Positions 9,067 to 60,046 of a DNA stretch of 64,000 bases are shown here, piece after piece. The notes under the pieces are model-generated. The model did no database searches. It was not told the DNA's origin and saw only the letters and a program-made list of their open reading frames with translations. The first letter of the stretch is position 1, and each line of letters begins with the position of its first letter. Origin of the DNA: Mesodorylaimus sp. YZB2_4 (Eukaryota; Nematoda; Enoplea; Dorylaimida; Dorylaimidae); NCBI GenBank assembly GCA_030248295.1, contig JASANH010001053.1, forward strand, positions 272,042 through 336,041, read 5' to 3'. The translations under genes and the position numbers were made by a program.

Positions 9067-10427
9067 CACCCCGGATCCGGTCGGGTACTTTCGGGTTGGG
9101 TCAAAATCGGGTCGGGTCACTTTTTTGAAATATCGGGTCAAACGGGTAAAAAATTCAGCAACTTTGCCATACTACTGCTAGCAGTTAAATAACCCTTGCC
9201 ATATCTGTTCAACTCCAGGATTTACAGAATTTGCTTCATGGATACGCGCATAAAGTCTGGCATCCCACGGTTTTCATTCTGCATAACTTCCAAGAATGTC
9301 AGACAAATTGTAAGCTGTGGGAATGACCAATTTTTCTGAGTAAATTTGCATATGGAGGGGTCCATATGTGAGAGTTCTCATTAACATTCTTGGCAACTCT
9401 AATGAATGGGTGGGACTAGCCATACTCTTAGAAGGAATTGATAATTTCCGACAGGTCGTAGGAATATCTACAATCACATTGGATTCCTGATGACAAATAA
9501 GTTCTTGGGATATACCTAGATAGAAAAGCCTGGTATTCAGTCTGTGCCCAAACCACAAAAATCTTGCATCAATAATAATCCCCACGGCCACCATTCGCGT
9601 TACCATTGCAAAACAGTTTCTGTGTTCAAAAGTCGGCCCCCTTGAGATTCCTTCATGAGTAGCAAAGGTTGTGACAGCTGCTAGTTTCCTGCACAATATG
9701 ACTTTGCAAGTATAATACCTTTTGTGAGGACCAGATGCATGCTGTTAATATAATTAGGTATTTCTTTGCTTAACGAGAATAGCCTGTCTCTGACTCCAAA
9801 GGTTATGCAAAAAGGCTTCATTATTTGGATTGGTTGAATCTTGCTAAGACTAGCAGACAGACCCTAGTCGCTTTTAGACATACTTACATAGGTTTTTAAA
9901 ATTGTTTGACAACTATTGTGGGAAATATGAAGGAATGCTGTTTTATTTAGCAAGGATTCTTAGGGAATTACAAAAGACGCAAATTCGGGTGCGCATGAAA
10001 AAATCGAAATATTTTCATCGAAATATTTTCACACAGTTACCGTTACAGCAAAGTCACCACGCCCTGCAGGGTTAACATTTATGGGTTATTCCCTGCGATT
10101 TTATCCATTTTTCTGGGTTGTGCGGCATACTGCAGGGTTTTGGTGAAACGCACGCGCAGATTATCTAGGGTGAATCCCTAGGTAGACTACCAATGGATGC
10201 TAGTAGGGGTATGGTTTTGGTGAAACACAGACACTCTAGGTACTACCACGGTAACCACGGGTTTTACCATGGTAGAACCTACAGTATCTATGTACCACGC
10301 GCAAATCCCCTCTGCTAGGGACTGCTTAAACAGTTTTATCTCAGTAAGCTTCAGCTGCTTATGTAGTAAAAAGTCGGATCAGGGTCTTTCGGGTTGGGTC
10401 GGGTTAAACCAGACCTGATCCGGAGTC
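9067..10427. mobile_element. GGGTCGGGT-rich TIR element, copy 1
   Basis: The ends CACCCCGGATCCGGTCGGGT (left) and, inverted, GACTCCGGATCAGGTCTGGT (right) form imperfect terminal inverted repeats bordered by TA on both sides. The ends are followed by runs of GGGTC/GGGTT pentamers. The internal region about 9274-9696 matches, in opposite orientation, the interior of a second copy at 57268-58458, so this is one family and not chance low complexity. The shared interior contains minus-strand frames without recognisable transposase motifs. It is probably a non-autonomous or decayed DNA transposon. Confidence 0.75.
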
Positions 10428-11243: not shown

Positions 11244-14200
11244 ATGACTGAATTACTAGGACCTTACGGCCGCAATATTCGGCAACTCTTCTACCTGGTG
11301 ACACCATGGGAAGCCATGTACGAGAACTTGGAGGATATGCCTCCTTTCGAGGAGCAGGTACATCTAAACAGTGTAGCATTACGAAACACCCTTTGCATTT
11401 GCTGCTTTCAGGTGGCACCGTGGCTGGGATTTTTAGTTTTCATGGAATTATTTTTTATTTGGATAAAAGGATCGATGCATGCTTTTCAAAAAGATGATGC
11501 ATTAGCTTCGGCTGGCACCCAGTTTCTGCAAGTAATTGTGAATAGGTATGCATTACTTGTCGGCTCCTGGGGAGATTTAGTTTGGAATCATCAACAAATG
11601 TTGAGGACCCAATTAGGAGCTTTGGAATCATTTTATAATATTAGACTCTTTTAGGGCATTTTAGTCTTATTGAAGCCAGGCAATCCACTTTTATTACGCC
11701 TTTTGAAAACAAAGACGCCCAATGTTCATTTAAAAAATGCAGTCATGATAGAATCTATTCTTCTGAGGCTCGAACCTGCTAACTTGACAGACTGCCAAGT
11801 CAGAGCGGTAATAGAAGTTTATCGCGCTACAAAAGTTTCGCAGCCTACGTGATGAGAATGCTTACAAAACAAAAAGTTGTACTCTTACCGGTACTTTTTC
11901 AGAATTCTGTGCCACTCCTTGTCGATGGCTGCCTACGTGTGGGTTTATGAAAACTGGTCCGTTTATCGGCTCCCATTCAACTCGGTTTGGACATTTCTCA
12001 TCTCAGTTGTGGTCGTTGACTTTTTTTATTACTGGTTCCATAGAGCTGCGCACGGTAAACGACTTTTTCATCATCACTCCTTAAACCCTATGTCATGGTC
12101 TTTTAGAGGTGAACATAATTTGGGCATTTCATTCGGTCCATCATAGCTCTGAGTATTTTAATTACACGAGTGCTCTGAGGTGAGTACGTGCTCGTTGCAG
12201 CAACAGATCTAAAGTACGAGTACAGGTGTGTGATTGTCGCTGAGAGATCAAGCTAGATAAGCTCATTCTCGGTGAGCTCACAGGCTAGCTGTGTGAGCAC
12301 TCACTTGATCAAACTTTTGACACAACTACACCACGCGGATGCCTTGTTTACTGACATTGCGCGTCTTGTGAAGACTTTTTGCAAATGCATAGCTATATCT
12401 ATTTTTTATCTTTTGTGAGCTGATATATGCATAAGATAAAAAAATTGAAAATCCTGCGACAACCCAATATGCACGAGTTTGTGCACCACTTGCATCTTCA
12501 CCTTGCAAAAATTTTTAAATGCGAGTATCTTTACCTATATTTTATTGTGTAGCTTACTTTGTTCATATTAAACCATCTGCAGTTCTAATGTAACGAAGCT
12601 TTGTAAGGTGTGGCAAGCGCTTGTCTGGTTCGATTGACAACCGCAACGACCGCAGCTAATGCTGTGTCGAAAGACAGTGAGAGGGAAAAGAAGCCCTTTT
12701 AATCTAGGCTTCCAACTTTTAAGATTTTTATCTAATAGCTGAGTTTTTGGATCAATCTGATGTCTATATCTCGAAAGAACGGCTATTCATATCTTTTCAA
12801 TTGATCGAATTGAATATTCATCTACACCTAAAGTATATATCTTTTGGGATTATTGTATAAACCATATATACAGTACGAAGGTTTATCTATATTTTTTTAA
12901 AAGGCATATAAACACTACCCTAGGTACAGGAACAGCAACTTAATCTATATCATTGTGATTCACTTTGCAGGCAAAATGCTCTTCAGCTCTTTGTCTCCAA
13001 CTTGTACTACGCACCCCTGGGCTTGTTCATCCCGCCAGGAACCTTCCTGATGCACGAGCTGATGAATCGTTCATACCAATTCTATTTGCATTCTGAGCTC
13101 ATCGGTAAGCTGGGTCCGATGGAGTGGATCATGGTCACCCCGTCTCATCATCGAGTCCATCATGGACGCAATCGATATTGCATCGACAAAAATTATGGTG
13201 GTTTTTTTATCATTTGGGATCGCATTTTCGGCACATTCGAGGGCGAACGGGATTCGGAACCAGTGCTCTATGGACTAACGCACAACGTCAATTCATTCGA
13301 TACAATAAGGGTCCAGGTGAGTCCCTTATGCACTAGGTACCCTGATTTTCAGTTTTGTTTTTCTGCTTTCAGTTCTTGTACCTGAAGCACGTGTTATTCG
13401 AAAAATTGCCCTCAGTTAAAGGGGTAAAAAACAAAATAAAGGCGCTGTTTTATGGGCCTGGTTGGACACCTGGAAAGCCACGATTGGGTAATTTAGAGGA
13501 CATTCCTGAGGTATCCACTTTGTTCTGTTGCCTAGCAGACTGGCAATGTGCACAATTTCTTCCAGGCAGTACCAACAAAACGGTATTGTTCAGGCGTGGC
13601 ATTGTGGGTGTCAGCATACTCATTCATTCACTTTCTCATCTACCTGCATGCATATGACACATTCGTCAAGATGGTGAAGGTAGGTAAAAGTCACAGTTCT
13701 GAGTCCATGCTCTGCTCTCTGGTCCAAATGTAAGGTTAACTTTCACTACACGATGACAGTCGGCAATCAGAGTTTTCAAGAAACTACTCAATAAGATTCT
13801 CGAATCGGAAGGGAAAAAACCGAAAACCTATTACGAGCGACTGGCAGATACAGTAGGGCCATGGAGACTCCAAACTGCCTCAAATTAACCCCCCCTTCGG
13901 CAAGAGAAGGCTAATTGGATACCCATTCAGGGCGAAACCCTCAAGTTTTTCCCTCAGCACCACTTCCTTGTCTTTAAAATACTTCTGTTCCTTCGCCTTT
14001 TTTTATTTCTTTCACGTTATTAGCATTTGAACAAGAGAAAACATGAGACACCTTTTTACTCAGGGATGTGACGCCTATTCCGGTACTGTAGATACCCTAG
14101 CTAGTGTTCTCGTTTTCGAGTGTCTAGTATTCTAGAGTGCTTTTTCAGTCTAGTGTTCAGGACCAAGTTGAAGTAGTTTACAAAGTGAGATGAAATTCTG

Positions 14201-14605
14201 GTAAGAAGGTCCTGTGCCTCTGCTAGCAGCAGCATTCCAGGAACTCCATAGAAAATGTAGCACCAAATATTTCAGGTGGCTTCGTTGACAATCCGCTTCG
14301 AGTTCTCTCTGTGGATTATCATTGGGATGTGCGTCTTGGGAGGATTTCTCGACAATAAGTAAGTACACACTGGATGGTCTTTCCTAGCTTTTGCTAATCA
14401 CCCTTTCTGCAGGGGCTGGGCGCCCTACGCCGAGGTTATTCGATGTCTTATTTTTTGCATTCGATTTTTCCAAATCGTTTGGCCAGACGGATTTATTTGT
14501 GCCATTTTCCAATTCATCACTGCACTGTCGCTCGTTTTCTGGGTCAGCATATTGCTGGTTTCAAATGGAAAAACTATCTCGGCTAGACTCAAGAAGAAGA
14601 TGTGA
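11244..14605 (+). CDS. Alkylglycerol monooxygenase, tandem copy 1 (AGMO-A)
   Basis: Nine exons: 11244-11357, 11412-11545, 11903-12054, 12107-12179, 12971-13316, 13373-13510, 13566-13679, 14276-14358, 14413-14605. All phases join to give 448 residues, close to human AGMO (445). AGMO is an ER-membrane, tetrahydrobiopterin-dependent di-iron enzyme of the fatty-acid-hydroxylase superfamily that cleaves the ether bond of alkylglycerols. The iron-binding histidine boxes are intact: HRAAHE (H129, H133 plus the catalytic-type Glu134, which spans the exon 3/4 junction), HSVHH (142-146) and HHRVHH (217-222), followed by GRNRYCIDKNYGG and DRIFGTFE. A C-terminal set of hydrophobic segments matches the family's multi-pass tail. 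The start is the first ATG in frame; two residues seen in the sister copies are absent here. Confidence 0.95.
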
Positions 14606-15445
14606 TTTGTGCATTCAAGTGAGCCAGACCTCTGCAGACCAGAATATTTGGCTCCTATTAGTGCAAATGGTAGCTAGAAACATCGGGTCTAATATCGATA
14701 AGTGCAGGTTCCACATACTTGCTCGAGTGTACTAGACTGACTGGTACCGCATACTGGTCTTGCGCATGAAGGAACTGTGTAATTATGTCTTAGCACCAAT
14801 TGCTGATATGATGTTATCTATTTGCCTGTGCCCGATCAAGCAGCATGGATGGAGTCTCTGTCTGACCAAGTACAGTGATGACCGTACATACAGTACTGTA
14901 AAGAATTATGGTCAATCTGGTTGCCTGGTTTCGTGTTTGGTCTATTGAAAAGACGAACAAAAAGCTTCATTTAAATTGCTTGGTACTGATAAATTAGTAC
15001 GACTTTACTAGGCTATCATTCTGTCAGGTCATATGTGAACTCCCGATTTGGTCAGCTTCAAACGAGATTTTGACGGACCTACAGTATGACCGAATTTCAC
15101 TTCCTTAGACCAGGGACACTAAGCGCTAAGATCAGTCATTACCAATGTTTGCGAGCCAAAGGTCTCGTCATCGGTTTCGCTTCTAAGCTCGTGTGCGGGG
15201 CAAATGGCAAGTAAAACTCAAGTCAGTCGTGGTCCAATTTGTTTGTCGCAGTATGAATGCATTTTGCCGGCAGTTATCGCAACGTATTTTTCACCTGTGA
15301 CGAATTGTTCAATTCTTGTTTGGCAACACTGCCGAATCTGGTCCAGTAGCACAAACTTAAAACCAGCCGTCAGCCACTCGCACACTGCCTTCCGAAGATT
15401 GTCTTCGCATGACACCAGTGAGTGCTGACAGTCGGTGCAGAAAGA
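14606..15445. promoter_or_regulatory. Spacer between AGMO-A and AGMO-B, with AGMO-B 5' flank
   Basis: No gene. A CAGACCAGAATATTTGGCT word about 30 bases after the AGMO-A stop recurs after the AGMO-C stop, suggesting conserved 3'UTR sequence. Just before AGMO-B, CTTCGCATGACACCAG matches the flank of AGMO-C exactly. Confidence 0.4.
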
Positions 15446-18400
15446 ATGATGCTGGCAGAAATAATCGGACCTTATGGTCGCCATATTCGGCAAATTTTTT
15501 ACCTGGTTGCACCATGGGAGGCCATGCACGAATCTGTGGAAGATGTGCCTCCCGTTGAGGAAGAGGTAAACCTAGGAGTGTAATTTTGGAAAACTAGCCA
15601 TTGTTGCCCTTCTAGGTCGCACCATGGCTGACACTATTAATTCTTGTGGAAATATTCCTCATTTGCAAGAAAGGACCACCACACATCTTTCAAACAGATG
15701 ATGCAGTGGCTTCGGCGGGCGCCATGTTTCTACAAATAATTGTGAATAAGTATGAGCTGAATTTTGAAGACAGTCGATAAGATCTTGGAATTTACCAAGA
15801 ATGTAAAGCCCTGGGAAACATATTTTTGTTTTTTATCATAAACTCTATCAAAGCCCTATTAAAGCCCTGTATCAAGTTCTTTTTATTTCATCCAGAATCC
15901 AGAAATCCAACAATTAGTTCCCCTCCTCATCCCCACTTCCAATCAAAGGACTAATATATGCACAGTATACAGTACAGTAGATGGGGGGGGGGGGGAATCA
16001 CTTTGGTATGTAAGTCCCTTCTTAGGCCACCTGCTGACTGAGCATGCAGACTGCCAGTTGATGCATTCCTCTCTGAAGTGGAGTCCCACTGAAATCGTCA
16101 AGTTCTTGACTCACTGGGAGTGTGCAAAACAACCAGGCTCACCCCTTCAGAGTTCTATGTCACTCCTTGTCGATGGCTGCCTACGTGTGGGTGTATGACA
16201 ACTGGTCGATATATCGACTTCCGTTCAACTCGGTTTGGACATTTTTCATCTCGATAGTTGTTGTCGACTTTGTTTATTACTGGTTTCATAGAGCTGCGCA
16301 CGGTAAACGACTTTTAGATCATCACACTTCAACCTAATGTCATGGTCTTTTAGAGGTGAACATAATTTGGGCATTCCATTCAGTCCATCACAGTCCCGAG
16401 TATTTCAATTACGCGACTTCTCTGAGGTGAGGACCTGCTTATATAGTAGCAGGAAAGGCAGTAGACTGTTTCCTCATATAGACCATTTCACACACCGCAA
16501 AATTTGAATTTCCCGCTACGAACTGCTTATGGCAGTTTTACATAGATAAAGATTCCAAACCTGAGCGACCGCTGTATTGAAAAAAATTTTTTATCAATGG
16601 TTTTATAGTTTCTGACTAATCCTTCGTTTCGTTTTGAAAAAAGGCCCAGAGTTGTCGTTTGGCCAGCCCAAAAAAGCTATGAAATGCAGAACGCGCACAG
16701 CCGTAAAAGTATGGGACTTTCATCTATGCGAAACTGTCACAAGGGGCTTGCAGCGGGAAATTCAAATTTTGGGCTGAAGGAGACCTGCAAAACGGTCTAT
16801 AAGCTTCCCAAACGGTCATGAACGACCACTTCATACCTATTTTCCAAAAAATTTGAAAAAGGTTCGCCGAAGTAATCTTCTATGACCCCTTATATTGTAG
16901 TAAAAATATCTTCTCGCTCTGCTGCGCGAAAATGAATGATCGACAGCGCGCACAGGGAAAGGGACGCGAATAATGTGCTACAGTCTCACCCCCAGAAGAT
17001 TTAAAAGTGCAACCTGCCAAAAACTAGAAATAACGGGAAAGTCTTTAAGACTGCTCTTTTATAGGCAAAATGCTCTTCAGCTCTTTGTCTCCAACTTGTA
17101 CTACGCACCCCTGGGCTTGTTCATCCCGCCAGGAACCTTCCTCGTGCATGAGCTGATGAACCGTGCGTATCAATTCTGGCTGCATTCGGAACTCATCGGT
17201 AAGCTGGGTCCGATGGAGTGGATCATGGTCACCCCGTCTCATCATCGAGTCCATCATGGACGCAATCGATATTGCATCGACAAAAATTATGGTGGTTTTT
17301 TCATAATTTGGGATCGTATTTTTGGCACATTCGAGGGCGAACGCGACTCGGAACCAGTGCTCTATGGACTAACGCACAACATCAATTCATTCGATACAAT
17401 AAGGGTCCAGGTGATCAGTCCCTGACTCGCGTGGCCCCCTGATTTTCAAACCTATTCTTTTTTCAGTTCTTTCACCTGAAGCACATGCTATTCGAAAAAT
17501 TGCCTTCAGTTGATGGAGTACGAAACAAATTAAAAGCGCTGTTTTATGGGCCCGGTTGGGCGCCTGGAAAGCCACGATTGGGTAATTTGGAGGACATTCC
17601 TGAGGTATCGGTTTCTATTGCTCTTCGTCAAACTGCCAATTTGCAAGTTATTTGTGATTTGTCTGGTCTGTATCAATGCAGCATCAATCTGAGGCGTGCC
17701 AGGTCCAACATCGGACACTCGAACCCGAAAAAGTCGGGTTTGGGTTGGGTCGGGTTTCGATTTTGGAGCTACAAAAAACCTGACTTTTATGGCTCAGAAA
17801 AATGGAACAAAATTTCTCGATACAGAGTGGCTTCTCAAACTCCTTTATAGCCCACTGTTTTGCACGTAATTTGGATAAAATTAATATGGAAATGTAGAAG
17901 ATATATCTTCAGCATGAGAAATGAATATCTTGGTCGAAAATTCAGAAAAAAGTCGGGTTGGGCCGGGACGGGTTTGGGGCAGAAATTTCTCGGGTCGGGT
18001 CCGGTTCGGGTTTTGGATTTTAGGTCTCGGGTCGGGTCGAGTAAAATTTCTTTTACCCGATGTCGGACCTGAAACGCGTGACGCCTCCAAGTGCCAGCTC
18101 GTTTTAGAGGATCTACTACGTACACCCAGACGAGCTTCCACTTATTTTTCAGGCAGTTCCAATAAAGCGATACCATTCGGGTGTGGCACCTTCTGTGACA
18201 GCTTATTCACTTGCTCAGTTTCTAATCTACCTGTTTTCATACGAAATATTCGCCAAAACGATGAAGGTACGGTAGGTGAAGGTAACGCTAGCATTTTTGG
18301 GTCTCTGTACTCGTCTTTAGTTTTGATTTAAGGTTAGCCGAATACTTGCTGGTGGATTTCAGACGATAATAATTTTAAAAGCCCTCAAAACTTTCTCGAA

Positions 18401-19027
18401 TCAGGAAAAACACGGAAACCCTGACACTTGAGTCTTACTCTTAGTTTAACAGTCTTATCGCGTGGCGCGGGCCATCTAGCATCTTGTCAGGACACGAGAC
18501 TGCATAGCACAAAACTGCTAAGACTGCTGCTGGACCGCCACAGAGTAACCTCAGGATGGGAGTAAAATATGGTTTCAGTTGGCAGCTCGCATCCAAAGTG
18601 AAGTGAAACTTCGTTGTAGAAACTTTCTATCCCGGGCCTCAGGAAACAGCAGCATTCCAGGACTTTCAGAAACTGTAGCATGGAACAAATATTTTAGGTG
18701 GCACCGTTGACAGTCCGCTTCGAGTTCTCCCTGTGGATAATCATTGGGATGTGCGTCCTAGGAGGACTTCTCGACAACAAGTAAGCGTACCCCAAATGGT
18801 CTTGCCTCACTTTTGCTAATCACCCTTTCTGCAGGGGCTGGGCGCCCTACGCCGAGGTTATTCGATGTCTTATTTTTTGCATTCGATTTTTCCCAATCGT
18901 TTGGCCAGACGGATTTATTTGTGCCATTTTCCAATTCATCACTGCACTGTCGCTCCTTTTCTGGATCAGCATATTGCTGGTTTCAAATGGAAAAACTATC
19001 TCGGCTAGACTCAAGAAGAAGATATGA
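15446..19027 (+). CDS. Alkylglycerol monooxygenase, tandem copy 2 (AGMO-B)
   Basis: Nine exons: 15446-15565, 15616-15749, 16151-16302, 16354-16426, 17065-17410, 17467-17604, 18153-18266, 18698-18780, 18835-19027, encoding 450 residues. Exons 2-9 have exactly the same lengths as in the flanking copies. All histidine boxes and the adjacent Glu are retained, so it should be an active ether-lipid oxygenase. It is the most divergent copy: exon 7 reads SGVAPSVTAYSLAQFLIYLF against SGVA(L/F)WVSAYSFIHFLIYL in the others, and exon 2 has a CKKGPPH loop. Intron 4 carries a TIR element (16479-16799) and intron 6 another (17700-18071); both are removed with the introns. The start is one of two adjacent ATGs (15446 or 15449). 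Confidence 0.94.
15983..15995. repeat. G13 homopolymer in AGMO-B intron 2
   Basis: A run of 13 G. Comparable runs occur at 30930-30941 (G12, Wnt last-but-one intron) and 41009-41023 (C15, intergenic). Lengths may be inexact in the assembly. Confidence 0.8.
16479..16799. mobile_element. TA-flanked TIR element in AGMO-B intron 4
   Basis: The ends TAGACCATTT and, inverted, TAGACCGTTT are bordered by TA. About 25 bases in, both arms carry AAAATTTGAATTTCCCGCT in inverted orientation, and a little further in TTACATAGATAAAG is matched by an inverted TCGCATAGATGAAAG, so the arms are roughly 80 bases with interruptions. There is no coding capacity. A related copy lies in the last intron of the Wnt gene (29921-30268). 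Confidence 0.75.
17700..18071. mobile_element. Small TIR element in AGMO-B intron 6
   Basis: The ends CAGGTCCAACATCGG and, inverted, CAGGTCCGACATCGG frame a 372-base element full of CGGGT words. Unlike the others it lacks flanking TA; a CAGG start is more hAT-like, but I could not see a clean 8-base duplication. It shares composition, not ends, with the GGGTC elements at 9067 and 57268. Confidence 0.65.
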
Positions 19028-19714
19028 TGTGTGCTGTACATTTTAGTAGGGTTACTCGTTTTTTGGCTAGTTTGGTGTTTGATCGATTTGAACTTACTGC
19101 TCCGATAAATTTCTTGGTTCTAATCGAATGAGTTTCATTTGATAACGCCGTTGGTATCTGAACAATTTGATTGTATCCACGATGTGATCGATAGCCGGGT
19201 TAACGATAACTAGTTACGTACTGAAGAACTAACGTTACTCTAGAGTAGCTCGTCAGTCCAAACATTGAAGCTTCTCGCTCTTTCTCGCCTGCTGTAACTC
19301 TCACTCTGTCTAACGTGAAGTTTCCGATAGTGTGATTACCTCTCTACTCTTCGCTGACTAACGGAAATGATAAGCCCAATCAATAATCTACCCCACACAT
19401 GTGGCAGCAAAACGTAAAATCCACTGTTTCTTTGATAATACATTCGTCAATTCCATATTTCCATTCACCTCTTCCTCTCCCTTCCTAGCCACCCACATAA
19501 TCACCAGCCACCAACTCTTCTGGCGCTCACTGCGTTGTTTCGTGGTCAGTAAATAGTGCAGTGGATTTTTCTATTTCTATTAACTTCTTGCCGAAACACA
19601 ATACTGTGCACTCTGAGACAGCAAGCCACATAAGGTATAAAGTGAAGGATAAATAAAGTCAAGAGCAAAACCATTAAAAAGTCGTCAGAGAAAACTTCAT
19701 CGATGAACTTATAA
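19028..19714. other. AGMO-B 3' flank, no gene
   Basis: A block beginning at about 19060 (TTTTTTGGCTAGTTTGGTGT) resembles one at about 28500 downstream of AGMO-C, so either the duplicated unit extends past the genes or a repeat inserted in both. The remainder up to the LINE is featureless. Confidence 0.4.
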
Positions 19715-22072
19715 AATTATGGTCTTCGACAAAGCTTTTTTAAACATATTTCTATCTGTAATCGAGGCAACTTCATATGGCAACGAGTTCCATGCATTCA
19801 TAGATCTATACAAAAAACTTTGCGTAAAACGTTAGTAGTTTGGGATTGGAACAATCAAGTGATGAGGTTCTGTCAAGCGAGCACTAAAACGTGAACCTGA
19901 ATCCGTTTTGAGAATAAAAAATAATTCGGAAAATCGTGTGTGCCATTGTAATATTTGTGGAGCAGGCATAATTTAAGACATTTTCTACGATCATGAAGTA
20001 AAGACCACCCCATCTGACTAAATACAGTCTCATACGACAAGTTCCAATCTTTCAAAATCATACGCAGCGCAAAAAATTAATTGAGATCGCTTAAGCTCCT
20101 GAATATCTTTTTTAAAAACGGAGTCCCAAGATACACATCCGTATGCAAGAATTGATCTTTATATATATACTGTATATATATATATATATTCCTTCTTTTA
20201 CATTAACGTTTAGTCATTATAAATGATACTGTTAGTATGGCCAAATAAGTGCTAACCAAAAGTCAGTGCAAACACACGAACACGGGCATGATCAGCTGCC
20301 ATTGACGCTTTAGCAAATCCAACTTTCCAACTCTATAAGCAAGCAGAAACATAACGTGATACCAGCTACGTATCGACCGAATAAATCCAGAAAAAACAGG
20401 TATGTTTTCCTTGTGCTTACAAGAATATATGTCAAAGCGGGCCCAGAGCAATAGAATGTTGACGGGTATACTGTATTCAACAGAACCAAGTAAATATGTC
20501 TCAACCGACAATGCAGCATCGACTCCAAGTGAACGTAACCTTCTTTCCAGCTCCTCCCACAGCTCACGGACACTAGCACACGCAAAAAATAATGTTCGAT
20601 AGTGTCAATAGCATTTTCGCGCCAATGGCATGTTTCTGACTTCTTAATTTTCCTCAGAAAAAAAGATGGCGATCCGTTGGAGTTAGGCGGTGCAGGAGCC
20701 TCCACTGGAAACTGATTAGAGCGGGTTGTAACCGAAAGCGAGTGAGCTGGCGAAAATAAGGTAGGATCTCTGGAATATCAAGTGATCTCTGCCAGGAGAG
20801 CTGCGAGGCAGGTACAGAAACACCTAATTTGACCAAAAAAGAGTAAAAAGTCTTAGATCTAGCCTGGGGTACAGATTGGCAGGACCTTAAATGCGGATTA
20901 AAGAGGACAGGTTTAGGAACAGAGTTGAAGAATTCAGCCAGCTCAGAAATGACCGCAGAAGACGAACGTATTGTACGCTTCCTCTGAGGGGAAACAGAAG
21001 ACGACATCTGAGAAAAATGAAGCCACTCACTGATAGGCAGCCCATACCTACTCCTTATTTCCTCGAATGTTAGAGGGTTACCCTGCGCAGAAAACAGCTG
21101 ACCCAAACAAAAAATGCCAGCGTCAGCCCAAGTCTTAAAAAAGAAGGGCTTTTTGTTAGACACGAGATCTCTATTATTCCACAGAATAATCTTTGCTGTG
21201 TCTTCGGGACTAGCGATAGGACCTCGTCGTTTAGGCAAAGAAAACCAGTCGACTAAGATCTGCCTGTAGAATGATGGAAAAACAGGAGTAAGGAACTTTG
21301 GGTCAAAATCACAGGCAAAAAGGAGCACCCCATCGAAAGGTGACAAAAGGCAATTGAGAAAATGCCTCCAACCGGGAGATTCAGAATCCATCAGGAAACG
21401 TGACAGTCAGGCGGGCCGAAGACTTTTCGCGCACAGACCAATATCTATGATACTGAGGCCTCCATCCTGAATAGGCGCGGGGGCCAAGGTCCGCATGACC
21501 TCAGAGCGAGAATTCCAGATAAACAGCTCAGGACCTGCAGGGCGGTTCCTGTAGGACCGTAAAAGCTTAGACGATGGAAGGGGAAACTGAAGCGGATAAG
21601 TGATTTTGGATAAACACAAGGTTTTAACTATCAAATTTCTGCCAATAATACTCAATCCGCGCAGTTTCCGTCTATTGAGAAGAGCATCATTGGTTTCGAT
21701 ACCTTTCGTAAAATTTAAACGGTACCCTTCAGTCTCATCTGCACGATTCAAAAAGGCACCTGAATATTTATATGGTCCTCTCTCGATGCGGCATCCCAGC
21801 GCGTCAGCATCTCTTAGAACAAAAATTAGGACTTTCCTAAGGTTCAGACGAAGACCCGATGGCTGTCCAAACGCACGGAAAATTTCAACAGCTCGATGCA
21901 CAGACAAGGAGGTAGTATGAGTAGTACAGGTATCGTCAGCGAAGTGCAATATGGGTAGTTTTGAAGAACCCAGATCAAGAGCTGTTGCGGTCATTTCTAC
22001 TTCATAATAAGAGGCCAGAGCCTGCATAGAAAGAATGAGAGGGACGGGGGAAGATGAAGAGGGAAGAGGATA

Positions 22073-22254
22073 TTGTAACCAGCGCATCCAGGCGCCGGGA
22101 GATAGTCGAGACCGAAGTCTCTAGGCAGAAACTCCGACTGGAGGAAGGCAAGTCTCGCGACTATACCTGCCCCGGAAACATCAACCGAAGAGGTTGACGT
22201 CCCAGCCAGGGAAGCGTATCGATTACTCCCAACCGCCAGATTTGCTGGTTACAA
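22073..22254. mobile_element. 182-base TA-flanked MITE inside the nested LINE, family copy 1
   Basis: The ends TTGTAACCAGC and, inverted, TTGTAACCAGC are perfect inverted repeats, and similarity continues to about 24 bases (...ATCCAGGCG / ...AATCTGGCG). TA borders both sides. It sits immediately after the RGCRQG motif of the LINE reverse transcriptase. Related copies lie at 53108-53291 and 56975-57178. Confidence 0.85.
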
Positions 22255-22815
22255 TATAAGAACGCCCTGCCGACAACCACGCTGGATTGGAAAAAACGGA
22301 GTTAAATTATTGTTAGCACGTATAGAGGATTAAACATCAGAATTACACAATCGGATGGACTCTATAAAGAATTTTGGAAATTTCATAGCTTCCAGCAAAC
22401 TGCACAGAAAATCCCATTCAATCAAGTCAGAGGCTTTTTTAAAGTCACGCAAAACAATATAGCCGTCCGACTTTTCAGGCTTATAGCCAGAAATTAGATC
22501 AGATAAGGTTCTTATATGCTCACAGATAAATCGACCCTTCAGATAAGACATCTGTTCACCGGAAATCAATTTAGGCAAGACTTTCGTCAGCCTAATTGCT
22601 AGTGCTTTAGAGAAGATTTTGTAATCACAACTGAGAAGGGCGATCGGGCGTCTAGACGACTGAAATTTTGGTTTATCCGCTTCAGGCACAGGTTTAGGTA
22701 TTAACCGAATACAAGAACGCCTTTGGTCGCGAGAAAGAGTGCCAACTTCATATGAGTAATCTGGAAATTTTGGAAAAGCATTTGGTTTCTGTCGACGACG
22801 TGGTACCAACAGCGC

Positions 22816-22982
22816 TTTGATTGTTGCAACGGAATTTATCCACTCATTGATCAATTCAAAGCAATCTCGATACGTAGCTGGAATCTTTCTCGACGTCCAC
22901 AGAGCCTTTGATAAGGTGCCACATTCGCTTTTGTTACATTCCCTGTCCGAAAAGCATCTATTACAACCAAAGATTATTCGCC
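22816..22982 (+). mobile_element. Inverted fragment of LINE-2 inside the nested LINE
   Basis: This segment matches, in reverse complement, LINE-2 at about 23680-23840: both encode ATEFIHSLINSK, YVAGIFLDVHRAFDKVPHS and EKHLLQPKIIR. It carries 15 bases (coding for extra LLLHS-type residues) that are missing from the local LINE-2 copy, so its source was a different, more complete family member. Confidence 0.8.
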
Positions 22983-24100
22983 ACTGCCGAAAAAGCCACT
23001 GGCGAAAAAAGGGAGACAGCTCGCGCCAAAATTTCTTGAAAAATTCAGAGGGAAAACCCGAAAGAAGCAGGGGCTTTATTACCTGGGAATTCAAGAATTG
23101 ATCTTACACACGCGTTGTGAACAGTAGCTCAAACTTGAGAGGAAATCGAACGACCAAACTTGCGATTAATGGCACCAATCATAGACTTTGCCCGTTTGCT
23201 GACTTCAAAAATATGATCAGAAAACTTCAGATCGTGATCAAAAAGAACTCCTACAGTAGGTATCTGGCAGAGTTCCAAACATGCAAAGATGCATTATTCA
23301 AAAAAGGAAGATCTTTGTAAAGTCGGGACTAGGACCATAACAAAAAATCAAAACTTGTGTTTTAGTCGGATTGAGATTCAGTCCGGCCGACGTAATCCAT
23401 TTTACAATAAAATCCAAGGCAGGTTGTGCCGATCGATCAACAGCGGCGGGTGATTTTGAAGGAGCCATTAAAAGAAGGTCGTCCGCATAAGCTTGCAACC
23501 GAAATTCAGGAAATCGACTTCCGAAATCACGTAACAATTCATCGAAGTACGCGATAAAGAGTGTTGGTCCGGGAATACTGCCCTGTGGGACGCCGCAAGG
23601 AATTGATACTGAGTTGGAAGCGCAACAATTGATCGAGACCGATTGTGTGCGACCATTCAAATATGATGCAATCCATCGAATAATCTTTGGTTGTAATAGA
23701 TGCTTTTCGGACAACGAATGTGGCACCTTATCAAAGGCTCTGTGGACGTCGAGAAAGATTCCAGCTACGTATCGAGATTTCTTTGAATTGATCAATGAGT
23801 GAATGAATTCCGTGGCACCAATCAAAGCACTGCTGGTGCCTGGTACCACGTCGTCGACAGAAACCGTGCTGATGGGCTGAGAATCTTATTTTCGATCTAA
23901 TCAAGGAATCGAATTGCTTTTCCAAAATTTTCGATAATAGCGATAGCAGCGGAATCGGTCGATAATTTCCACAATCGCTGCGATCTCCAGACTTCGGGAT
24001 AGCAATAACTTTTGCATTTTTCCACAATCAGGGAAATGTCGCCACGGCTATTGATCACATTGTTCCGAGTCATTCGTTTTCTCCTTGACATTTTAGACTT

Positions 24101-24470
24101 TTCCTTAATCTTTTATTGGTGTCTGCCCCAGAGCTCGCTGCGGCTGTTTCAAATCACAGTAATATTATGAACATGAATACGCATACTACCTCAACGAACA
24201 ACCTCGGAAAGCAATGTGAGGATTTCTTTTCGAAGAGTAACTTTTTACTCATGTTCTGTCTCTTACACTAGATTAGATGCGATGCATTCTGTCTGCAGCT
24301 GCCGCATCGTAGGGTCACCAGAGAAACACCAGTTTAGACTGTGCTGCTCCAAATCTAGTCTTTCTAACCACGTCTAAAGTACGGAAACTGAATACATTCA
24401 CTGTAAACTGTGCGTTAACCAGCAACGCACTCTCTCTTCATGTTTGTCTTCGCATGACACCAGCAGAAGG
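24101..24470. promoter_or_regulatory. 5' flank of AGMO-C
   Basis: No gene. CCAAATCTAGTC near 24351, GCGTTAACCAGCAACGCAC near 24411 and CTTCGCATGACACCAG at about 24449 match, in order and spacing, words before AGMO-A and AGMO-B. This suggests a shared promoter or 5'UTR duplicated with the genes. Confidence 0.45.
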
Positions 24471-27400
24471 ATGGTGCTGGCTGAACTAATCGGGCCTTAC
24501 GCTCGCCATATTCGGCAAATCTTCTATCTGGTGACACCATGGGAAGCAATGTACGAAAACTTAGAAGATGTGCCTCCTTTTGAGGAACAGGTGAATCTGA
24601 AAATGGCAGCTTGATGATAAAAATGGTTAAATTGCTTAATTTAGGTTGCACCGTGGCTGACACTTTTAATTTTACTCGAGTTATTCATTATTTGGAGAAA
24701 AGGAGCGACTCATGTTTTTCATAAAGACGATGCACTGGCTTCACTGGGCGCCATTTTTTTGCAAACAGTCGTGAATAAGTATGTGCAGCTTTTAGGGCTT
24801 CTAGGGGATATCTCGTTTCAGCTGATAAATTATAGGACTTTTTACTTTCATTTTATCACGTTCCTCAATTTTCTTAGCCGCAATAAAAAAATTCATTACA
24901 ATGCTTCGTAATAGAATAATAGTTTAGTGTAAGAGCCCATTTTTTCAGGCTTAAACCTGCTGACTGCGCAGGCTGCCCCTTGAGTCTCATGCAGTGGGGT
25001 CTCAGTGCAATAGGAAAATCTCACTATCAAATTCAAAACAACGGCTCCCTCTTTTAGAATTCTGTGCCACTCCTTGTCGATGGCTGCCTACGTGTGGGTT
25101 TATGAAAACTGGTCCATTTATCGGCTTCCGTTCAACTCGGTTTGGACATTTTTTATCTCAATAGTTGTCATTGACTTTGTCTATTACTGGTTTCACAGAG
25201 CTGCGCATGGTGATGGATTTCACTGTTTCACAACTCAGATGATAACACTTTGGTCTTTTAGAAGTAAACATAATTTGGGCATTCCATTCAGTCCATCACA
25301 GTATCGAGTATTACAATTACGCGACTGCTCTGAGGTGAGGACCTGCTGCAGGCGTGTGCACACATGCTCCATAAAAAGATGTATCATAAGCAAAAAAGTT
25401 GAAACAATAGCTGTTAAATGTAAAGGTCATAGTTGCAGACGAAGGCCACAAGACCAGCTTAGGTCAATTTTACTCAGCGATGTGCATCTTTTTATGGTAT
25501 CAGCAAAGCAGGAATGCGCACTCGTGTGTGAAGGGGCATATTCAGGGTTCATACAAGGCGCGGAAAATCATTGTCCCTGATTTTCCAAGCTTCCAGACAA
25601 ATATTCGACTTTACTGATTTTTTTACAGTTTCTCAACAGAACAACGAATTTCAATTGATTCACAGCGTCGTTACTGCTCCTTGGTTGAGCGACTTTGCAA
25701 AATCTGAGGGATCTGATAATATTCTTCCTCCCCAGAGCTTTAACCGCCCTCAGAAAAGGCGGCTGATTCAACACTTGATATCTTAAAATGCCAACTGTCA
25801 CAGTTTTCCCTTATTTTCCAAGGGTTTCCACACATTTATCGGATTTCCTGACTTTTCCAGATTTCCCTGGTTTTAGAATTGTATGTACATTTTACACACA
25901 ATGATTTTACTAACCGCGAATCAAAGACTTGGTGTAACTCCGCACCTCGTGTGAGAAGCAGACGCCTAAGCCCATCAAAGCGCAAGCTGGGCACACAAAA
26001 AATATATTTGTCACCGCCTTATGGCCGGTCGCTGACACGAACTCCCGATCTATTAGCTAACGAAAAAAATCGTCATCTTTTCAGGCAAAATGCTATTCAG
26101 CTCTTTGTCTCCAACTTGTACTACGCGCCCTTGGGCTTGTTCATTCCCCCTGGAACCTTCCTGATGCACGAGCTGATGAATCGTTCATACCAATTCTATT
26201 TGCATTCTGAGCTCATCGGTAAGCTGGGTCCGATGGAGTGGATCATGGTCACCCCGTCTCATCATCGAGTCCATCATGGACGCAATCGATATTGCATCGA
26301 CAAAAATTATGGTGGTTTTTTCATCATTTGGGACCGCATTTTCGGCACATTCGAAGGTGAACGAGACTCGGAACCAGTGCTCTATGGACTAACGCACAAC
26401 ATCAATTCATTCGATACAATAAGGGTCCAGGTGAGTCCCTTATCCACTAGGTGCCCTGATTTTCAGTTTTGTTTTTCTGCTTCCAGTTCTTCCATCTTAA
26501 GCACGTTTTATTCGAAAAATTGCCCTCAGTTAAAGGGGTAAAAAACAAATTAAAGGCGCTGTTTTATGGGCCTGGTTGGACGCCTGGAAAGCCACGATTG
26601 GGTAATTTGGAGGACATTCCTGAGGTATTACTTTCTCCCTTTCGCGCTGCAAAAAAGCTTTGCTTAAAATATTTTTAATTAAGGCAGTACCAATTAAACG
26701 ATACCGTTCTGGTGTGGCATTTTGGGTGTCCGCATACTCGTTCATTCACTTTCTCATCTACCTGCATGCATCCGATACATTCGTCAAGATGGTAAAGGTA
26801 GGTGAAAGTCACAGTTTTAGTCCAGTGTCTCCTTTTCTGGTGATGAGTATGGGCGATCAAAATTTCAAGAAAAGATCGATGAAATTCTCAAAGTTCGACT
26901 GAAAACCTTTGTTTTCTTCCCTTTTGTTCCCTCTCCTACTTCTTCCTTGACTTTTTCGTTATCGCAGTTTAGTAACCAAGTTAAGTAACCTAATTTCAAC
27001 ATTTTCGCCAAAGTGAGAATATTGCGCCAAAAACAGTGCAGTAGTTATCCCAAGCGTTTTCGTGACTTCAGAATCAAATGACGTAGTGTTTTGAATGAAG
27101 CAGCCAAAAAATGGCATATTATATCTTGGAATATGTGAAAAATTATTTCAGTTGGTTGCATTCAAAGTGAAGTGAAACTTTGTTGCAGAAACTTCTTGTC
27201 TTGGGCCTCAGGCAGCAGCAGCATTTAAGGAATTCCATAGAAACTATAGCATGGAACAAATATTTCAGGTGGCACCATTGACAGTCCGCTTCGAGTTTTC
27301 CCTGTGGATAATCGTTGCGGTGTGCGTCCTGGGAGGATTTATCGACAACAAGTAAGCATACATTCGATGGTCTCGCCTCCTATTTACTAATCACTGTTTC

Positions 27401-27598
27401 TGCAGGGGCTGGGCCCCCTACGCCGAGGTTATTCGATGTCTTATTTTTTGCATTCGATTTTATCCAATCGTTTGGCCAGACGGATTTATTTGTGCCATTT
27501 TCCAATTCATCACTGCACTGTCGCTCCTTTTCTGGATCAGCATAATGCTGGTTTCAAATGGAAGAGCGATCGTGGATAGACTCAAGAAGAACATGTAA
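24471..27598 (+). CDS. Alkylglycerol monooxygenase, tandem copy 3 (AGMO-C)
   Basis: Nine exons: 24471-24590, 24645-24778, 25058-25209, 25262-25334, 26085-26430, 26487-26624, 26684-26797, 27269-27351, 27406-27598, giving 450 residues. The three histidine boxes and HRAAHE are intact. The second box reads HSVHHSIEYYNY. Intron 6 ends in TTAATTAAG, an AAG rather than CAG/TAG acceptor; the exon length (114) and the protein match to the sister genes leave no better site. Intron 5 is 56 nt and differs from that of AGMO-A at only three positions, showing recent common origin. The C-terminus is RLKKNM, against RLKKKM in A and RLKKKI in B. Confidence 0.94.
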
Positions 27599-29644: not shown

Positions 29645-32600
29645 TTACTCGCCGTCTGGGTAGATCGGAAAGGACTGAGGTTCACGCTTGCATGTGTCCA
29701 CGTCTTCCCACTCAGAGCAGTGCTGACACACGACATCGCAGCAGTAGATGAAACGGCACTGAAAAAATAGGAAGTCAGCAAAGGATGATAGGATTGCAAA
29801 ATGGAAGAGTGCGAGGATATGACTGCTGATTTCGGCATATCAAAGATTAATCTTGCTGTGGTTCTTCTGATTAAAAGGGTATTAGTAGCTTTCCTGTGTA
29901 GTATAGCTAGTCCGTTCACCAGACCATTGGAGATTGAAGAATTCGAATTTCTTGCCGCGAACCGCTTATAACAGTTTTATAAGGATGAAAATTCCCACTG
30001 TGGGCCTGTGTAGGTCAGGCATTTCGAAGCTCTGCATAAAAAGATAAAAACTCAGCCGATTTAAAAAAAAAAGAATGAAAATCGTTAATCATGAACCAGG
30101 AAAAAATTGAGCGCACTAGCTTAGAAATAAGGGAGTTTTCGTGTGTAAAACTGCCATAGGGAACGGTTTTTTTCGTGACAGGCCTCGCAAGACGTCATAC
30201 TAGGCGCGCACACGCTGACTTGGCGACGCTGACCAATTTTGCATTGTCAGATACCTGTGGAATGGTCTACACTGGAGCTGTAATTTTTCAAACCCGTGAC
30301 ACAAGGCGATGGCGAACTCGATGGCTGTAGGTTGAGGAATGGTCTAAGCTCTTGTTATCGTCATCACACTCTTATCACTGACCAAAAAATTAAATTCGAC
30401 TGCCTGACTTACGTTGCATTTGTAAATCCTCAGCTGACGTGTGGTGTCGAATCCACGCCCACAGCAAAGGCTATCGCATCCATCAGGCCCTGTCGAAGTC
30501 CGATTGCACCTACGTCCAGCCGTGCCTGGAAACCCAGTCCTTGGATCGCGGTTGCAATAATCGGGTGATGGCTCGAAGTAGACCAAATCCAGCGCATTGA
30601 TCCTGGGAGACTGGAACTTGGCGTTATCCGCGCCCACTCTGCTGGCTAGCGGTTGATCGTATCGACGAACGCTGTGATCGAAGCTGGACGAGGATGGTGT
30701 CAGGATGGAACCTCGGGAGCCCACGGTCACTTGCATCGATTGGTCATAACGACGACGTAGCAATTCACCAACGGCGTCAAATTTGGGCAGGGACCACCAA
30801 CATGTACGCGTGGCGCATGATCCGCTGACGCCGTGGCATTTGCATCGTTTCTCGGGGCTACGACGAATTACCTAGAACGTGCATCAAATGTTGAGAAGGC
30901 CTCCAATGTCGAAGAGTCAATACTGTGCAGGGGGGGGGGGGTCTGATGGCAGTACAACTGCCAAAAGAGCTGAGAAGTGGTGCCTTTTTATGCCATATAA
31001 CATCACGGTACCTATCATCTGCTAGGTCATAGCATACAAAGTATCTAATCTGTTCCAGCTCGCATACACCCACCATTTACTCGGTCCCATCCCGGCTTAC
31101 AAAATTCGCTCACCTTTCTTCCAGCTCTGTTGTTATGCAGATTCATCAAGGCACGTCCGTCACGTGACATACGATCTTTAGCATCGATAAATTTCCTCGC
31201 GAAGCTGGTGGCGTAAGGAATATTGTCCGAGCATCCACCCCACAGGAAATCGCCTTGTTCATCTTTGCCGCGTCCTTTCATCCATCGCCGATCGCACTGG
31301 CAATCTCCCAGCTCGCCCCGATTACAGGCCTTGGCAATGGAATAGACCACACCCGCACTGGTAATTGCGTAAACGAAAGCAGATTCGGCACTGCCAGCTA
31401 AAAAAGAGCGGTCTGCATTGTCACGGGCAATAGATCTTGGAGTGCCTGCATTGCACATCACTGATTTTAGCAAGAGACATGTCGCGTCCCTGAGTTCGAT
31501 CCCCATCGACTAAAACCACCCCCAAGGTCTGTTTGACACTTTGACGCGATGAGGTACAGCTTTCGATAACAATGCAAATTTGGTGCATCGTGAAAATGTC
31601 AAAACCCAGGGATTACTTTCAATGGGTCTGAGTCGTCCATTTCGAAATTCTTTGAGCGGGAACTATTTCAAGGGAAACTAAAATGTGCAACACATTTTGG
31701 TATCGAAGAATAGTATTCTGTCCCAATTTAAAAGTCGTACCAGGGTGTGCATGGGTTGAGCCACAGAATACAGTGCTGTCCCACACTCTCCCTGAGAAAC
31801 TACTTGAGGGGATTACACTCTACAGTAAGTCCCAGAAAGCGCGCTGCCGCCTTTGCTCGAACCTGGGGAGACAATACTTCAATTAGATCCAGGCGGGGAT
31901 GTACATATTGAATTTGAGGGAGAAACTAAAAAATTCAGAGTAGACACCATTACAGTACAGTTTTGACCAGTTTTCGAGCAATTTTAGAATCCGCAGAAAC
32001 TCCCGTACAGTGATTCATTAGTGTAGAAGCATTCTTTCTTTTCGAGAAAGAGGTTTAAGACGCATGACAACTTTCTCATGTGGTAGATAACAGATGACTT
32101 CCTATTAGCATAAGAATAGCGAGGTTTTTAACCATGTCTTTCGACTCCTGGAAATCAATTCACTGATCCCTCCAGACCCAGAATCTTATAATCGATTTCA
32201 GTCAGACTCGCGAAAAGAAAGCATGGCATTGAACAGCCGAGTCAGTCCTTATTAGCAAGTTTTAACTTAGGCCCCAGAGACTTCCTACTCGAAATAGGGT
32301 CCATACGAGAAGAGAGACTTCCGAGGAAAAAACTCACAAGAAAGAGTATTTCTGGCAGTGAGAGGTTTTTGTGTGTGACCCTGCGGTTATACACTAGCTT
32401 TCCAATTCCCTGTGTCGCCACCATTTCAATAGTCACACGGACACACATGCACTTACGTTTCAAAACTATCCTTCCAACTCCGTTCGGCTCATTGGTCGAG
32501 CAGTTCCATCGATAATTAGCGAATTGACGCTGGCATTCGGAGACTCCTAATCGTACACCTTCGCGGACGGCATTCATAGCTTCTGGATTCGTGCGACAAA

Positions 32601-33259
32601 GCCGACGCTGGTATCTGGATAGACCGGGTATCAAGTCGCACATGGCAGGACTCGACGACGTGCCCAAAGCTAAGACCCGCATTTGTGGAAGAAACCTGAA
32701 GCGAACATTGATCGAGGACGTGGGAGTAACAGTGATGCCGCTGTAATTTCCATTTTGTTGGTTGTCTATTGTTGATCAGCAGATTAGAGGTCCAAGATAC
32801 CAGGCAGTCCCCTCTAAGGACAAGTCTTTTTTTAAAAATCAAAACATAACAGCGCAGTCGCTGTTATGTTTGTCATAGCATTGTTAGCAATGCCCCAGCG
32901 GACATTGCTAACAATGCAGCTGCTGTATAACAGATTCTTCTGTCTTAGCTCACAAGGCTCATAGTCAGTCAGGGGCTGCGGTGACTTATCATATGGATTA
33001 GCCGCAAACTGTTATTTCCAACATAACACCTCCAAGCTCTTATCAGTTCATTGATAAGGAAAATATACTCAGGTTGGAACTGATAAGACGCTAATCACTC
33101 GGCTATCAAGAGCATCCATGACCTTTTCAACCCATGAACTAGTCTATCAGCCCTGCTATGCGGGTTTTTCACTTACCACCACGTAGACATTGTACTCGGG
33201 ATCAGTATCCAGAATAGGACGAATAGTGCACACACTCGTCCTCGAACAGTCCACATCAT
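29645..33259 (-). CDS. Secreted Wnt ligand, Wnt2-like
   Basis: Five exons on the minus strand: 33259-33177, 32695-32457, 31397-31114, 30871-30413, 29758-29645; phases join to 392 residues. The N-terminus has a hydrophobic signal segment (about residues 9-25). Wnt landmarks follow: [65 protein letters not shown], the lipid-modified serine motif [40 protein letters not shown] and the cysteine-rich end [14 protein letters not shown]...DTCK. The stretches [24 protein letters not shown] and [11 protein letters not shown] favour Wnt2 over the other subfamilies, by memory of those sequences. It should signal through Frizzled receptors. Intron 1 carries hairpins and GATA sites; the last intron carries a TIR element. 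Confidence 0.92.
29921..30268. mobile_element. TIR element in the last Wnt intron
   Basis: The ends AGACCATT (left) and AATGGTCT (right) are inverted. The inner part (TTCGAATTTCTTGCC, CGCTTATAACAGTTTTATAAGGATGAAAATTCCCA) resembles the left arm of the element in AGMO-B intron 4, so both belong to one family. It has no coding capacity. Confidence 0.6.
32842..32917. repeat. Two adjacent perfect hairpins in Wnt intron 1
   Basis: The first stem is 13 bp with a 4-base loop (32842-32854 with 32859-32871; AAACATAACAGCG arm). The second is 15 bp with a 10-base loop (32878-32892 with 32903-32917; GCATTGTTAGCAATG arm). They are six bases apart. About 120-170 bases downstream are three GATA sites, two of them in an inverted arrangement (CTTATCAG...TGATAAG, 33039-33058). 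Confidence 0.8.
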
Positions 33260-42025: not shown

Positions 42026-43052
42026 TGAGAAGTGAGCAGAAATGATTTTTATATTGGTTTTGCTAATGAATTTTGTTTTTCTGCTAGTATGAACGAATAA
42101 AATCGAGTATATTTCTTGCTAATGTGAGGTGTTTATCTGTTTTATTGCCGTGATTTCTACTACCTGTGCTGATGCAATGTTTGATCGACAGACTTTATTA
42201 TTTTTCTTGTTCAATTCATGATGTAAAAACAGCTTTGACAAGCATCTTTGACTGGAATGTGGAATGACAATTTGAATTTCGCGCTTTGATGTAAGTAGAT
42301 GCGTACTTTCTGATTTTCCCGCTATGTAGCAGACAACTGTTAAACAGGTACGAGTAGAGTTTGCTCGGAAGGTTCGATCGAAGGGGAACGATCAAAGTTT
42401 TGCTTTTATGGGTTTTGAAGAAATGATTTTGTAAGAATATTACTCACGTATGCAAAAAAATTTGATTCCATACGTGTTTGTTGGAATTTGAAAAGCTGAG
42501 ACTCGATAAATCTCGATGGTGAGTTTTGCTTTGGCAAGTTTCCAGTTTCTAAAGCCACCACTTTTTCCCAAATACGTATGTGTTTTCGATTAAACACAAA
42601 TTGTAGAAATGATTCTGTAAGCTTCGGCAAATAGAGAAATATCGATTTTTAGTTTGAACGAGTGAACGTAGAATAATAAGGGAAAGTCAAATTTCTGTTT
42701 TATGTTCATGTTTTATGTCTGTTGAGAAAGTTTATACGTGAAACTTATGATACGAAGCAGTTTTTAATTATGTAGTTGCCTGGAAATTCTATTTTGAAAC
42801 TAAATCTTAATAAACGGTGACCCTATTTATTCTGTTCCTTTTTAATTATATTCAAAACGGAGGAAAACCGTCCGGGACCTTGTCTGATTGATTAGCTGTG
42901 GCGTGTGTTCTCGTCGTGCCATTGTACTGAAATAAGAGCAGGGGAGGGATGAGTGGGAAAACCACGGCTCGTTTAGAACCTTTAGTAATTACCAGATAAA
43001 AAACTAGACTCAACCAGCAATATTCCCGTAAAAAATGTTTTTCGTTTCAGAA
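42026..43052. other. Spacer between the unknown gene and ELL
   Basis: AT-rich. An AATAAA at 42096 probably ends the upstream transcript. A pyrimidine-rich TTTTTCGTTTCAG acceptor at 43038-43050 lies directly before the ELL ATG. There is no gene. Confidence 0.5.
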
Positions 43053-57267: not shown

Positions 57268-58458
57268 GACACCGGATCAGGTCGGGTTCAACCCGACGGG
57301 TCGGGACCCGACCCGACCCGACCCGACCCGACCCGACCCGACCCGAAAGTCCCTGACCCGAAATTTCGGGTCGGGTTGACCCGAATTCGGTATAAGTAGT
57401 TGAAGTTCCGCGCGATAAAAACCATTCACAAATGCTCAGAAGGTGGTGGCGTTGGTGTAAAGCTGACTGTGAGAAAATATGAGATGGAGACATCTAACGC
57501 ACGCGAATCTTCATCTTTTGTTATTCCCTAGTCATCCTGGGTAAATGCAATAACGTTCCTTCATATTCTCCACAATGGTGGCCAAATAATTTTTTAAAAC
57601 CTCAGATCTAAAAGCGACGTGGGTCTGTCCACTGGAGACACGATTTAACCAATCCGAATAATAGGCGTGAATAATAGAGACAACTCTGTCATAACATTTG
57701 GAGTCTGGGACAGCTTATCCTTGGTTAAACAAAGAAATACCTAAATATTTCTGAGCCCCAGGCTAGAGTTGCATCTAGTCTTCGCAAAAGATATTGCTTA
57801 CAAAGTCATATTGTGCTGGACACTATCTCCTGTCAGAACCTCCACTACTGATGGAGGGATGTGAGGATACCTATCACTTTTGAACACAGCAAACTGTTCT
57901 GCAATGGGAACATGGATGGAGGTTAAGGGGGCTATTATTGGTACATATTTGGTGTTCGGGCACAGACTATATTGCTCTTCCAGCCAGGTATACCCAGGAA
58001 GTTATGTCATATTCAGGAATGAAATGTGATTGTAGATACCCCTCCGACCTGCTAAAAGTTATCAATTCCTTCTTATGTTAGAGTATGGCTAGTCCCACTC
58101 ATTCATCAGAATTAAAAAGAATGTTTATGAGAACTCTCACATATGGACCCTTCCCTTTGAAGAAATTATACAGAAAAATTGGTCATTCTCACAGCTTACA
58201 ATTTGTGTGACATTCTCGGAAGTTACGCAGAATGAGAACGTGGAATGAAAGACTTTGTGCATGCATGCATGAAGCATATCCTGCAAATCCTGGAGTCGAT
58301 CAACTATGAAAAGGTTTCTGTAGTTGCTAACAGTAGTAACTTGCAAAATTTCTGTATTTTTGACCCGTTTGACCCGATCTATCAAAAAAGTGACCCGACC
58401 TGATTTTGACCCTACCAGACCCGACCCGACCCGAAAGTACCTGACCCGATCCGGGGTC
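57268..58458. mobile_element. GGGTCGGGT-rich TIR element, copy 2
   Basis: The ends GACACCGGATCAGGTCGGGT and, inverted, GACCCCGGATCGGGTCAGGT are bordered by TA. The right 100 bases match the left end of copy 1 (9067) in reverse complement, including the AGTGACCCGACC and TTTGACCCGATC words. Internal sequence at about 57900-58260 matches 9274-9600 inverted. A run of eight tandem CCCGA pentamers lies at about 57306-57346. Confidence 0.8.
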
Positions 58459-60044: not shown

Positions 60045-60046
60045 TA

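Follow-up and report, generated by a model that had tools for sequence, protein, structure and literature searches.

Three intact AGMO genes in tandem

The window analyzed here, a 64,000-nucleotide stretch of contig JASANH010001053.1 from the nematode Mesodorylaimus sp. YZB2_4, carries three complete AGMO genes side by side, and gene conversion after an old triplication would be the simplest account of the mosaic pattern in which they have diverged. AGMO, a di-iron membrane enzyme that depends on tetrahydrobiopterin, hydroxylates the ether bond between alkyl chain and glycerol in alkylglycerols and in this way breaks it. Typical of the family are nine transmembrane segments and an ER location. 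A first-pass annotation had proposed three tandem, intact AGMO genes with exon lengths and phases common to all copies. We re-derived the gene models from the raw sequence, and the rebuilt models, Pfam matches and open frames bore this proposal out, giving three genes in head-to-tail orientation with nine exons each. The assignment of each copy draws on its gene model, Pfam matches, essential residues and a branch omega below 1:

11244..14605, plus strand: AGMO copy A, 448 aa; exons 11244-11357, 11412-11545, 11903-12054, 12107-12179, 12971-13316, 13373-13510, 13566-13679, 14276-14358, 14413-14605
15446..19027, plus strand: AGMO copy B, 450 aa; exons 15446-15565, 15616-15749, 16151-16302, 16354-16426, 17065-17410, 17467-17604, 18153-18266, 18698-18780, 18835-19027
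24471..27598, plus strand: AGMO copy C, 450 aa; exons 24471-24590, 24645-24778, 25058-25209, 25262-25334, 26085-26430, 26487-26624, 26684-26797, 27269-27351, 27406-27598

The exons of copy A measure 114/134/152/73/346/138/114/83/193 nt, and those of copies B and C are the same except for exon 1, which is 120 nt (114 in A). Coding length modulo 3 after exons 1 to 8 is 0,2,1,2,0,0,0,2 in all three copies, GT-AG borders are present at 24/24 introns (8 per copy), and the proteins have unbroken frames with a terminal stop only. Amino acid identity is 83.5% between A and B, 87.1% between A and C, and 85.3% between B and C, a level that rules out chance likeness, while coding-base identity is 87-89.5% (10-13% of bases differ). 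A tblastn search of the whole window for further family members (E up to 10) returned only matches with E >= 2.5 outside 11244-27598.

All three proteins match the Pfam FA_hydroxylase domain (PF04116; 102.8, 103.6 and 101.6 bits for A, B and C, cut-off 31), the domain that they have in common with human AGMO and C. elegans agmo-1 (formerly BE10.2). They also score above the cut-off of 28.3 for the AGMO C-terminal domain AGMP_C (PF24858; 33.5, 30.3 and 29.9 bits), with a narrow margin and over profile positions 2-67 of 88. According to the figure 2 legend of PMC7911779, the essential residues of human AGMO are nine histidines and six others. At the human spacing, each copy has 9/9 of the histidines (132, 136, 145, 148, 149, 201, 221, 224 and 225) and 6/6 of the further residues (Q162, D233, N235, Y236, W243 and D244). 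In addition, a Glu directly follows HRAAH in 3/3 copies; the passages of PMC4423366 on the worm protein name E154 (worm numbering) as the likely biopterin-binding site. The earlier claim that the di-iron histidines and the Glu of HRAAHE are kept is therefore confirmed, with 16/16 key residues per copy and nine histidines among them. We infer that all three genes probably encode expressed ER enzymes with AGMO chemistry.

A related family, the ornithine lipid hydroxylase OlsE (NF052566), has its core region in common with the copies, but they score only 65-67 bits against its cut-off of 475, and we rejected membership in that family. A PDB sequence search with copy C found no solved structure matching at E <= 1.

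Purifying selection on every copy

In a three-leaf maximum-likelihood codon model, with likelihood ratio tests against omega = 1, overall omega was 0.313 (P 4e-17). Each branch was likewise below 1, at 0.39 for A (P 0.001), 0.31 for B (P 1.9e-7) and 0.25 for C (P 1.2e-6), and no difference among the three branches was detected (P 0.5). Every copy, taken whole, is thus under purifying selection. When exons were considered singly, omega was below 1 at P < 0.05 in exons 1, 2, 3, 5, 6 and 7 and short of significance in exons 4 (P 0.068) and 8 (P 0.055). Exon 9 had an omega of 1.6, indistinguishable from 1 (P 0.46), and selection on the C-terminus may be loosening in at least one copy. None of the nine exons had an omega significantly above 1.

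Mosaic divergence along the genes

Neutral divergence, summed over the three leaves, was 2.72, 2.39, 1.72, 1.29, 0.84, 1.04, 2.74, 1.12 and 0.18 substitutions per codon for exons 1 to 9. Because this is a roughly 15-fold span between exons, the copies seem to have swapped sequence, a pattern that the first-pass annotation does not mention. The identity of the closest pair also changes with the feature along the gene (chi-square of pattern type by feature, P 9e-13). Over all sites we counted 146 switches in 308, compared with a shuffled mean of 203 (SD 8.2) and 0/10000 shuffles as low, and the switch test on silent codons only gave P 0.004, in permutations that take no account of clustered mutations. 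The longest concordant runs over all sites, from the same kind of permutation, were significant for A-C (13049-13097, P 0.0016) and A-B (12041-12067, P 0.0094) and not for B-C (P 0.68); with silent codons only, the longest-run tests fell short of significance (P 0.053, 0.072 and 0.23).

The introns are similarly uneven. Intron 5 is 0.943 identical between A and C, 0.717 between A and B, and 0.698 between B and C, and intron 3 is 0.863 identical between A and B, 0.431 between A and C, and 0.510 between B and C. Intron 8 is 76-82% identical in all pairs (10-13/54 positions differ), intron 6 is 51-71% identical across pairs, and introns 1, 2, 4 and 7 are at 36-56%. With a second aligner, introns 2 and 7 scored above shuffles (z 4.9-13.9) and intron 4 behaved like shuffles (z 0.2-1.4). 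The 300-base upstream and downstream flanks were 41-63% alike in alignment. We propose two exchanged stretches:

12971..13510, plus strand: proposed A-C exchanged stretch, part in A, running from exon 5 through intron 5 to exon 6; counterpart in C at 26085-26624, borders approximate
12041..12111, plus strand: proposed A-B exchanged stretch, part in A, running from the end of exon 3 through intron 3 into the first codons of exon 4; counterpart in B at 16289-16358

Exons 5, 6 and 7 are 96%, 94% and 88% identical between A and C. This does not make a single clean A-C tract, because intron 6 is unlike in that pair (0.509) although exons 5-7 are alike. Exons 5-6 are alike in every pair (A-B 90.0%, B-C 88.7%). 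At the A-B stretch, silent codons 131, 135, 136 and 137 join A with B; deeper in exon 4, the closest pair is B-C (0.918).

We consider it probable, from these comparisons among the copies, that an old tandem triplication was followed by gene conversion that touched the catalytic core and the C-terminus in patches, with the N-terminal part and exon 7 drifting apart. One animal AGMO gene would have been tandemly triplicated long ago at the DNA level, introns included, and the copies would first have diverged to a level comparable with exons 1, 2 and 7. Interlocus gene conversion would then have homogenized A and B near intron 3, A and C over exons 5-6, and all three copies in exon 9, such that the catalytic core stayed near-identical; what diverged would be the N-terminal part, together with the exon 7 segment in copy B. 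Given this apparent exchange, the likeness of the core may owe something to homogenization as well as to independent conservation. The array also illustrates that, where conversion acts, divergence measured over a whole gene can be an unreliable clock.

The first-pass annotation had raised the worry that the array might be an artefact of haplotypes, and the divergence of the copies largely, though not fully, answers it. Alleles, or misjoined or over-polished paralogs, appearing as three copies would fit with a run of 110 nt that is identical in all three (coding columns 607-716), where short-read polishing could blur the copies, and over-polishing might have affected the most similar stretches. 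Against such an assembly origin, which we regard as very improbable, coding identity of 87-89.5%, a shuffle-like intron 4 and unlike flanks amount to more difference than is expected of alleles, all three copies are open and spliceable, and B is separated from C by 5.4 kb that contain remnants of reverse transcriptase genes.

Silent identity in exon 9

The lowest neutral divergence falls in the last exon, where silent-change counts and alignment mark the following feature:

14413..14605 (A), 18835-19027 (B) and 27406-27598 (C), plus strand: exon 9, with silent sites near-identical in all three copies

Only 1/49 conserved degenerate codons in exon 9 varies silently, versus 83/287 in the other exons (Fisher P 8e-6). 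This silent identity gives out near the two ends of the exon, at the intron border and at the stop codon. The adjoining intron 8 carries the differences given above, and the 3' flanks part shortly after the stop codon. Such exon-bounded identity is odd: it is not what a conversion tract need show, and it counts against plain conversion.

One reading of this pattern is that the uneven silent divergence does not come from conversion: silent sites in exons 5 and 9 would instead be constrained by RNA structure, splicing or regulatory signals. The borders of the exon 9 identity are what such constraint would predict, but the likeness of intron 5 (A-C) and intron 3 (A-B) also fits exchange, and the amino acids of exon 9 still vary at 11/63 positions. 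The RNA of exon 9 in copy B, the only copy folded, was no more stable than shuffles (z -0.17), giving no support in that copy to RNA structure as the cause of the identity. We therefore think constraint on silent sites an unlikely explanation overall.

A more speculative idea, and to us a distinctly long shot, is that conversion operates within functional modules only, with the catalytic exons, above all exon 9, homogenized almost exactly between exon borders, perhaps from a spliced-RNA-derived template, and the N-terminal and exon 7 modules left free to diverge into variants in substrate or membrane placement. If true, module-wise conversion would amount to a functioning means of generating enzyme variants around a common catalytic core.

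Where the proteins differ

Variable residues make up 14/38 of exon 1, 21/45 of exon 2 and 16/38 of exon 7, where 12 changes are unique to copy B. The core equivalent to human 202-250 has 0/49 variable residues. Human positions were mapped by a constant offset, verified only for 132-244, which places exon 7 outside the verified range. By this offset and the TM borders given in PMC7911779, exon 2 takes in TM1 plus a portion of TM2, and nearly all of exon 1 precedes TM1. It is conceivable that the differences in exons 1, 2 and 7 affect lipid access.

These differences could mean that the copies are three specialized AGMO isozymes, in which the N-terminal part and exon 7 alter substrate choice or membrane placement and selection retains all three. 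The clustering of variable amino acids in exons 1, 2 and 7 against none in the core, the exon 7 changes in copy B alone and the constraint on each whole copy are consistent with this. However, omega is significantly above 1 in no exon and is below 1 in exons 1, 2 and 7, faster drift is expected of weakly constrained parts in any case, and divergence elsewhere may be masked by conversion. We regard specialization as possible but doubtful.

Alternatively, the copies could be redundant and retained simply for dosage, because more ether-lipid cleavage helps, with conversion keeping them alike. The near-identical catalytic core and the exon stretches common to the copies agree with this idea, but the N-terminal parts are unlike, and with flanks only 41-63% alike, shared regulation is not evident. 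Simple dosage is a reasonable candidate that we nevertheless do not favor as it stands. Judging from the sequences, the likeliest use of the array would be more, or differently regulated, AGMO activity, and different substrates are possible.

AGMO is the only known enzyme able to degrade alkylglycerols, as stated in PMC7911779, and its loss in C. elegans alters cuticle strength and resistance to a bacterial pathogen, according to passages of PMC4423366 and PMC7911779. In an animal with three constrained AGMO copies, the roles of ether-lipid breakdown would be separable by copy.

Relatives of the array

The first-pass annotation had called AGMO a single-copy family in mammals and C. elegans. 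In mammals AGMO is a single-copy gene. For C. elegans the claim stands on the passages of PMC4423366 that give one AGMO gene, compared with three in tandem here. The copies retain, at human spacing, all nine histidines and six further residues listed as essential in the human enzyme (positions from the figure legend in PMC7911779). Among the matches listed in a search of open-licence PMC articles, we found no AGMO gene expansion or array, which is weak evidence of absence, and the AGMO passages of PMC7347838, PMC13161914 and PMC12110897 give no copy number.

No relatives emerged from homology scans based on the whole alignment, whose search patterns lay in the N-terminal quarter. With a 49-residue core piece as the query, we found at least 586 prokaryotic relatives, of which 80 loci were kept, and 4 loci on viral contigs. 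Only one of the latter (L081) was used, the other three having matched over 16 residues only, giving a set of 81 relatives (80/80 kept prokaryotic loci and 1/4 viral-contig loci). Each of the nine histidines is conserved in 80 or 81 of the 81, and the residue after the first HX3H box is Glu in 24/81 and Arg in 46. A Limnohabitans protein (L001) is 34-36% identical to the copies over 349-373 aa; we take such bacterial relatives to be sterol desaturase/FA-hydroxylase family proteins. Many bacterial relatives are only ~300 aa long, and they are single contiguous ORFs, unlike the nine-exon copies. Tandem duplicates with gene conversion are a familiar kind of evolution, and the array, though uncommon, is an ordinary instance of genes duplicating.

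Neighborhood of the array

The gap between copies B and C contains the remains of mobile elements:

21410..23885, minus strand: degenerate remains of reverse transcriptase, lying between B and C and recognized by RVT_1 matches to ORFs of the minus strand

Against an RVT_1 cut-off of 29.6, the matches scored 20.5 bits at 21410-22120 (below the cut-off), 47.9 at 22333-23103 and 82.4 at 23301-23885, and we read the remains as non-LTR type. The segment 22784-22980 matches 23677-23865 at 87% in inverted orientation, which gives the elements a nested look.

Copy B has two unusual introns. Intron 4 holds a 68-nt inverted repeat (16493-16560 / 16709-16776, 76% complementary) that resembles a small inverted-repeat transposon, and a stretch near 29930 looks similar to it by eye. 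Intron 6 (17605-18152) is 548 nt, versus 55 in A and 59 in C, with G-rich GGGTCGGGT-like stretches; its extra length is probably an insertion, and no inverted repeats were found within it.

Upstream of each start lies an out-of-frame ATG, at 11236 (A, 8 nt before the start), 15409 (B, 37 nt) and 24454 (C, 17 nt), and A and C have one additional upstream ATG each within 120 nt. These are possible uORFs of differing lengths. We rejected a conserved uORF as a shared element, since the upstream ATGs of the three copies differ in length and frame.

Elsewhere in the window, Rfam and tRNA scans gave no matches. A dispersed repeat of ~0.9 kb occurs inverted at 9094-9993 and 57498-58416 (76% identical), and an inverted 134-nt pair at 58588-58721 and 59913-60046 is 98% identical and perhaps a recent mobile element. 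The neighbors of the array are Wnt, bestrophin, ELL, scramblase and GPCR genes (the last with Srsx as best Pfam match, 60.8 bits). Together with the short introns, this gene content would tentatively point to an ecdysozoan, perhaps a nematode or tardigrade. Three Wnt-gene ORFs lie just downstream on the opposite strand (30347-32775, minus strand); for one of them, the top-scoring solved structures are Wnt-5a (114.5 bits) and, almost level with it, Wnt-7a (112.2 bits). The ELL elongation factor (43032-44735, plus strand) is a single 567-aa ORF with ELL and occludin-homology domains, unlike the nine-exon AGMO genes.
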